A DNA stretch of 64,000 nt, taken from an uncultured Mediterranea sp. (GTDB lineage Bacteria > Bacteroidota > Bacteroidia > Bacteroidales > Bacteroidaceae). Shown here piece after piece: positions 17,597 to 19,198 of the stretch (positions are counted from its first letter, which is position 1; each line of letters opens with the position of its first letter). The position numbers were made by a program, and so were the translations under genes. The stretch is taken from positions 157,363 to 221,362 of the forward strand of contig CALZEQ010000001.1 of the NCBI GenBank assembly GCA_945641355.1, written 5' to 3'. The notes under the pieces were generated by a model, which saw only the letters and a list, made by a program, of their open reading frames with translations, made no database searches and was not told where the DNA came from.

Positions 17597-17613
17597 AAAT
17601 ATCTTCCTGAAAT

Positions 17614-17644
17614 TTTGCTGGAATGAAAATAATCTCTATCTTTG
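17614..17644 (+). promoter_or_regulatory. Bacteroides-type promoter for tRNA-His (TTTG-N19-TATCTTTG)
   Basis: TTTG 17614-17617 and TATCTTTG 17637-17644. Confidence 0.75.
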
Positions 17645-17671
17645 CACCGCATTTAGGAAATGCAACAACAT

Positions 17672-17746
17672 GGTGGCTGTAGTTCAGTTGGTTAGAGCGT
17701 CAGATTGTGGTTCTGAATGTCGAGGGTTCGAGTCCCTTCTGCCACC
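17672..17746 (+). tRNA. tRNA-His (anticodon GTG)
   Basis: Cloverleaf read by eye: G-1/C73 pair, D arm GTTC/GAGC, anticodon stem TCAGA/TCTGA with GTG at 17707-17709, T arm GAGGG-TTCGAGT-CCCTT. Confidence 0.95.
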
Positions 17747-17750
17747 CAGC

Positions 17751-17788
17751 AAAAAGAGAAGATCCCATTCGGGGCCTTCTCTTTTTTT
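17751..17788 (+). terminator. Rho-independent terminator after tRNA-His
   Basis: AAAAAGAGAAG...CTTCTCTTTTTTT hairpin with T tract. Confidence 0.8.
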
Positions 17789-17850
17789 GTGCCTGTAATC
17801 TGGCTCCTGTATCATTTTTGGAGATTCTCCGATTTTTAATGAGGTTTTTC

Positions 17851-17881
17851 TTGTGGCTTTCATTTAAACTCCTTATCTTTG
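17851..17881 (+). promoter_or_regulatory. Bacteroides-type promoter for candidate ncRNA
   Basis: TTG 17851-17853, 20-nt spacer, TATCTTTG 17874-17881. Confidence 0.6.
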
Positions 17882-17887
17882 TCTTAG

Positions 17888-18083
17888 GAAAAGCGAATAA
17901 GCATAGCCGCATTGATTGGATCGGGAAACTCATCAAATATATCTGAAATACCGAGACAAGCTTCGCTTCTCAATGGCGGGCCACGCCCTTCGGGGTAACC
18001 TTTGAGTCGGTGGATTACAAAGAGGACGAGCTCTCAAATCATGTCTTTCGGAGTTTCATCACATCATCGATGCGGCTTTTTTC
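17888..18083 (+). ncRNA. Candidate structured small RNA, family unassigned
   Basis: Closing stem AGCCGCAT (17905-17912)/ATGCGGCT (18070-18077) followed by T6; GAAACT/AGTTTC second stem; UUCG hairpin GCCC-TTCG-GGGT; own promoter; no convincing ORF. Confidence 0.55.
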
Positions 18084-18085
18084 AT

Positions 18086-18128
18086 AAAAGGGGATGAGAA
18101 ATCTGTGGTAGATTTCGCGTCCCCTTTT
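18086..18128. terminator. Long hairpin downstream of candidate ncRNA
   Basis: AAAAGGGGA/TCCCCTTTT plus GAAATCT/AGATTTC stems. Confidence 0.7.
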
Positions 18129-18250
18129 CACCATATATAGGTATATGTTTCGCTCCGGTCCCGTTTGTGCGATGCTTCATGCGGTTGCAGTATCACACCT
18201 TCTATCCGAATCGGTTTTGTGCTTTATGCTAAACTAATAAGCAACAACAG

Positions 18251-18280
18251 TTGGAAGTTAAAAAAGAATTCATATCTTTG
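18251..18280 (+). promoter_or_regulatory. Bacteroides-type promoter of AraC-family regulator gene
   Basis: TTG 18251-18253, 19-nt spacer, TATCTTTG 18273-18280. Confidence 0.7.
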
Positions 18281-18310
18281 CGGAGTTATACTATTTAAAC
18301 CTTTCATGCC

Positions 18311-19198
18311 ATGGAAAGTGAGAATTCTATTATTCGGGAGATTACTCCGTTGTCCGATCGTGATTGCTTCTATATTGCCGATCGCAAGAAGACTGAATTT
18401 ACATACCCTATTCATTGCCATGCTGAGTATGAATTGAATTTCACAGAACATGCCACCGGCGTGAAACGTATCGTGGGTGATTCTGCCGAGATCATCGGCG
18501 ATTATGATTTGGTGCTGATAACGGCAAAGGAACTGGAACATGTATGGGAACAGCATGATTGTACTTCGGAGAATATCCGCGAAATCACGATTCAGTTCTC
18601 CCCCGACCTCTTTTCCGGCAGCCTTATTAACAAGAACCAGTTTGATAGTATCCGTCGAATGCTGCAACGGGCGCAGTGCGGGCTCTCTTTTCCCATGCAG
18701 GCTATCATGAAAGTGTATAACTGGCTGGACAAACTGGCATCTGCCGAGCAGGGATTTTATGCAGTGATGAATTTCATGCGAATTCTGTATGAGCTTTCAT
18801 TGTACGAAGATGCCAAAGTACTCTCCAGCTCTTCGTTTGCCAAAATAGAAAACTATTCGGACAGCCGCCGCGTACAGAAGGTGCAACGTTACATCGCGGC
18901 ACACTATCGGGAAGAAATTCATCTGAATGAACTGGCCGATATGGTGGGCTTGACCCCAGTTGCTTTCAGCCGTTTCTTCAGACTTCGCACAGGCAAGACC
19001 CTCTCTGACTACATCATTGATATTCGTCTGGGCAATGCAACCCGTTTGTTGGTAGACTCCCAGCGTACCATTGCCGAAATAGGATATGAAAGTGGTTTCA
19101 ACAATCTTTCTAACTTCAATCGTCTCTTCAAACGCAAAAAAGGAATGTCGCCCAAAGAGTTCCGAGAGGGCTACAGAAAAAAGAAGCTGGTGATATAG
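18311..19198 (+). CDS. AraC family transcriptional regulator with N-terminal cupin-like domain
   Basis: 295 aa; C-terminal HTH (LADMVGLTPVAFSRFFRLRTGKTLSDYI, IAEIGYESGFNNLSNFNRLFKRKKGMSPKEFR). Confidence 0.92.
   Translation: MESENSIIREITPLSDRDCFYIADRKKTEFTYPIHCHAEYELNFTEHATGVKRIVGDSAEIIGDYDLVLITAKELEHVWEQHDCTSENIREITIQFSPDLFSGSLINKNQFDSIRRMLQRAQCGLSFPMQAIMKVYNWLDKLASAEQGFYAVMNFMRILYELSLYEDAKVLSSSSFAKIENYSDSRRVQKVQRYIAAHYREEIHLNELADMVGLTPVAFSRFFRLRTGKTLSDYIIDIRLGNATRLLVDSQRTIAEIGYESGFNNLSNFNRLFKRKKGMSPKEFREGYRKKKLVI

Follow-up and report, generated by a model that had tools for sequence, protein, structure and literature searches.

A Bacteroidales-1 locus in a Mediterranea genome is very probably a free-standing 6S RNA gene

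6S RNA folds into a rod with a central bulge that mimics an open promoter and sequesters the housekeeping RNA polymerase holoenzyme. In E. coli, the 5′ strand of the bulge serves as template for a pRNA, with synthesis proceeding in the direction of the closing stem. The Bacteroidales-1 motif was discovered in 2010 by comparative genomics (PMC2864571), and its occurrence in Porphyromonas gingivalis genomes is also on record (PMC5771137). It is catalogued as Rfam family RF01693, which Rfam labels "6S-Bacteroidales RNA suggested". For Bacteroides thetaiotaomicron, passages of a dRNA-seq study report that a Bacteroides 6S RNA was detected along with pRNAs of two classes (PMC7366714). We infer that the RNA in these passages, which carry no Rfam accession, is RF01693.

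The window, the 64,000-nucleotide stretch of an uncultured Mediterranea sp. analysed here, contains such an RNA at 17905-18083 on the plus strand, the strand of all RNA-gene features described below. In cmscan, RF01693 matches this segment over model positions 1-179 of 179 with 196.7 bits (E = 6.9e-35). The score exceeds the curated cut-off of 60 bits across the full model, which makes the RNA a member of the family. The first-pass annotation had called it an orphan, a description overturned by this clean, full-length match to a known family, the very outcome that the annotation had named as fatal to its proposal. The mature RNA has about 173-179 nt, and the genome holds one copy. The stretch is confirmed as a genuine small-RNA gene, conserved and structured. 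The Bacteroidales-1 RNA here is already catalogued, not new, and the comparative results are a refinement of a known RNA. Its best explanation, which we consider very probable, is a free-standing 6S RNA gene.

Canonical 6S RNA (RF00013) gives no match in 17600-18400 at E-values up to 1, and the window RNA is therefore not filed under RF00013. This test concerns sequence similarity, not function, and the model matches one of the 247 genomes of the order and is silent in the other 246. Since RF00013 is silent, 6S membership rests on the linkage to 6S-Flavo (RF01685), on shape, and on position.

The structure was tested in an alignment of 48 relatives (A1), which contains the compensatory changes that the first-pass annotation had suggested looking for. 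The ends of the RNA form a closing stem, P1, with its 5′ arm at 17905-17913 (reaching 17916 in the window sequence) and its 3′ arm at 18069-18077. Within P1, AGCCGCAT (17905-17912) and ATGCGGCT (18070-18077) make a perfect 8-bp helix that runs into T6 (18078-18083). Double compensatory changes occur at nine of nine P1 pairs, with 93% of cells paired. Stem P2, GAAACU (17925-17930) with AGUUUC (18052-18057), is mostly invariant, with 96% of cells paired, double changes at two pairs, and two pairs without any change. Both helices had been read correctly from the letters in the first pass. In the Rfam consensus of RF01693, model positions 1-54 and 128-179 are unpaired, whereas here the ends form the covarying P1 plus P2. 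The covariation score of the whole structure is 0.281, compared with 0.170 in 500 shuffles, none of which reaches 0.281 but which do not keep the relatedness of the sequences. The slide control does keep it, and the score falls to 0.06-0.09 when the structure is slid by 1 to 3 columns. Folded on its own, the sequence 17896-18085 does only modestly better than its shuffles (z = -2.0). The RF01693 E-value places the RNA beyond chance, and the comparative support is decisive.

Above P2, the 5′ side of the central bulge (17931-17950) is A/U-rich, about 20 nt long, and mostly unpaired in the alignment consensus. The upper arm and the 3′ side of the bulge (17951-18047) include GAG/CUC and GGCCAC/GUGG pairings and the UUCG-capped hairpin of the first-pass annotation (CCC-TTCG-GGG, 17986-17995). 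Within the arm, GCU/AGC, UG/CA, and CCAC/GUGG show compensatory changes among the 48 relatives. The rod expected of a 6S RNA, about 160-200 nt long with a closing stem, a large central bulge, and a terminal arm, is the shape found here. In particular, it shares with RF00013 and E. coli ssrS a length of ~180 nt, the closing stem, the central bulge, and the upper arm. The likeness to 6S that had been offered tentatively from the letters is thus supported by the covarying closing stem, the upper arm, and the ~20-nt 5′ bulge.

How the bases pair around the central bulge is ambiguous. A CCGA-GACA/TGTC..TCGG stem had been proposed, and its letters are in place, with CCGAGACA (17951-17958) facing TGTC (18042-18045) and TCGG (18048-18051), but CCGA/TCGG is comparatively the weakest of the stems named, with 82% of cells paired and no compensatory change in the 48 relatives. 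GAG/CUC, which overlaps this stem and excludes it, joins 17953-17955 to 18033-18035; it is formed in 48 of 48 and has one double change. Energy folding of the window sequence favours CCGA/UCGG plus GACA/UGUC, whereas conservation favours GAG/CUC; the choice between CCGA/UCGG and GAG/CUC with a 3′ hairpin may depend on the lineage. In some lineages, a CCUG/CAGG or CCUA/UAGG hairpin is available in A1 columns 176-191 (window ~18040-18051). The window lineage has UCAUG..UCGG on the 3′ side of the bulge, where this hairpin is impossible, and it is chiefly sequences without the hairpin option that can form CCGA/UCGG. Two further candidates were rejected. A bulge sequence CAAAnnTA, which would mimic the complement of the -7 box, occurs in only 3 of 68 sequences and is not conserved. 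A bulge-collapse helix, UGAAAU (17944-17949) with GUUUCA (18053-18058), is preferred in silico once the pRNA site is blocked, but it is not claimed, because its covariation is no better than that of shuffles.

R1, a covariance model that includes the closing stem, has rough E-values and was trained on members from the same samples in which it matches 137 of 247 genomes of the order (70 for RF01693) and 50 of 244 genomes of the class (16 for RF01693), with at most one match per genome in either sample. Independent support was therefore sought. RF01685 matches 23 order and 10 class genomes, of which 15 and 7, respectively, are also matched by R1, at the same place and on the same strand in 22 of 22. 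In one of these genomes (G233) the shared place lies above the curated cut-off of 6S-Flavo, and in another above this cut-off (G145) RF01693 itself matches the 6S-Flavo place. RF01685 does not match the window sequence, which is too divergent, and the likeness runs through distant relatives of the window RNA that both models match. By this co-location, the RNA is homologous to a recognised lineage-specific 6S family. Separately, the sole RF00013 match among the 247 order genomes (52 bits; G351:C10:9900-10087) lies in a genome with neither an R1 nor an RF01693 match; either this 6S lineage is divergent or the contig is a contaminant.

Gene neighbourhood is a second line of evidence, separate from the model matches; a place next to zapA counts in support of 6S identity and is not required for it. 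The 6S RNA gene of E. coli K-12 immediately follows zapA, and this order is reported for ssrS in beta- and gamma-proteobacteria generally (PMC7641849). Distant relatives of the window RNA are placed likewise: 16 weak or distant RF01693 matches and 9 of 10 6S-Flavo matches fall in the gap that separates the ZapA gene (PF05164) from rny (RNase Y). The window genome keeps zapA and rny adjacent on another contig, only ~130 nt apart, and the RNA is not there. With so short a gap, the RNA must have relocated or arisen anew at another site. Unlike ssrS, the gene of the window lineage stands alone by tRNA-His, with its own promoter and terminator. We consider it probable that Bacteroidales-1, 6S-Flavo, and undetected relatives form one 6S lineage whose ancestral place after zapA is common with Proteobacteria, that in the window lineages the RNA departed from the zapA-rny operon to form a gene apart, equipped with a promoter and a terminator, and that the published Rfam model lacks the closing stem and fails to find about half of the order's members. 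A second small gene, encoding ~98 aa that are coiled-coil-like and end in ...REIDKCIALLN, precedes zapA at loci L013, L014, L065-L070, L072-L079, and L080 (1130-1423) and in the window genome; it is possibly a ZapB counterpart.

An RNA of 6S shape need not act as 6S RNA does. A Bacteroidales-specific RNA that binds core polymerase or another protein, without pRNA, would fit the failure of RF00013 to recognise the RNA, and PMC9130861 gives a precedent in actinobacterial Ms1, a 6S-like RNA that binds core polymerase. Such an RNA is very improbable here, however, as the loci are identical to those of 6S-Flavo, the zapA linkage is common with E. coli 6S, and pRNAs are reported for B. thetaiotaomicron in the passages of PMC7366714.

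Judged by the established action of 6S RNAs, the window RNA likely sequesters RNA polymerase and releases it upon pRNA synthesis. When nucleotides are scarce, the bulged rod would occupy the housekeeping holoenzyme as an open-promoter mimic. On outgrowth, the polymerase would copy the 5′ bulge strand (~17921-17940) into a short pRNA, predicted to start at about 5′-(A)UUUGAUGAGUUUCCCGAU. The pRNA would displace the P2 strand AGUUUC, so that the RNA would refold and the enzyme would be freed. The presumed template (17921-17940), where P2 meets the 5′ bulge, is assigned from the E. coli analogy and from the very high conservation of GAUUGGGAAACUCAUCAA in A1, and this block is the most conserved of the 5′ half. 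The pRNAs in the B. thetaiotaomicron passages (PMC7366714) support a template role, which we infer for the RNA here. A trans-acting small RNA that regulates mRNAs by base pairing could likewise come from a free-standing gene, and CUCAAAUCCUGU, which is conserved and in part unpaired, offers a possible site for target pairing. Nevertheless, the order-wide conservation of the full-length structure, the single copy in each genome, and the links to 6S fit a housekeeping RNA better, leaving base-pairing regulation very unlikely.

The 6S RNA gene is flanked by transcription signals of its own. The Bacteroidota-type promoter TTG-N20-TATCTTTG (17851-17881; TTG at 17851, TATCTTTG at 17874-17881) is present in the letters as the first-pass annotation had it, and transcription is expected to start a few nucleotides past 17881. 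TTG-N18-22-TAnnTTTG lies upstream of 46 of 58 free-standing copies (0.6% expected from shuffles) and is absent before all 16 zapA-rny copies. Downstream, the hairpin at 18086-18128 has an energy of -24.9 kcal/mol (z = -6.7), a value that none of 200 shuffles equals. Of 56 free-standing relatives, 39 have a hairpin of at most -14 kcal/mol in the 70 nt that follow the RNA (8.7% in shuffles), accompanied by TTTT in 24 of those 39; no zapA-rny copy has a strong one. The position of this hairpin is conserved while its sequence differs between loci, and 18086-18128 is therefore best read as an intrinsic-terminator-like hairpin of the RNA gene. The long hairpin noticed in the first pass is thus real and strong, but we take it for the terminator of the gene rather than a further RNA element. 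Since the hairpin is single-copy in the genome, it was rejected as a repeat or mobile element.

Three TTG-N18-22-TAnnTTTG promoters lie within 700 bp, at 17615-17644 (tRNA-His), 17851-17881 (6S RNA), and 18251-18280 (araC). In several distant members (L060, L062, L066, L069, L071, L072, L074-L079), the place of TAnnTTTG is taken by GTTCTTT(GA) or GTTCT, a conserved block that precedes the RNA by 15-40 nt and is a candidate processing or antitermination signal, or leader.

The RNA sits between tRNA-His (17673-17747) and an ORF for an AraC-family regulator (18311-19198; HTH_18, HTH_AraC), but a cis-regulatory leader or read-through product of this region is scarcely credible and already contradicted, as tRNA-His is near the RNA at 0 of 57 other related loci scanned (the window alone among 58), an AraC homologue recurs at one other locus only, and weakly, araC has a separate promoter-like pair, and the promoter and terminator of the RNA are conserved among relatives. 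The tRNA-His and araC genes are accidental neighbours. The first-pass annotation had likewise held, from the separate araC promoter, that the RNA is not simply a leader; its interpretation as a whole is partly supported.

For the window genome, the annotation is settled: the gap holds a 6S RNA gene, which is ordinary for this genome. The R1 model finds the RNA in about twice as many genomes as Rfam's model, and the results suggest that RF01693 and RF01685 should be merged and the closing stem added. Closing-stem covariation, co-location with 6S-Flavo, and the zapA neighbourhood together give a firm comparative basis for Bacteroidales-1 as 6S RNA.
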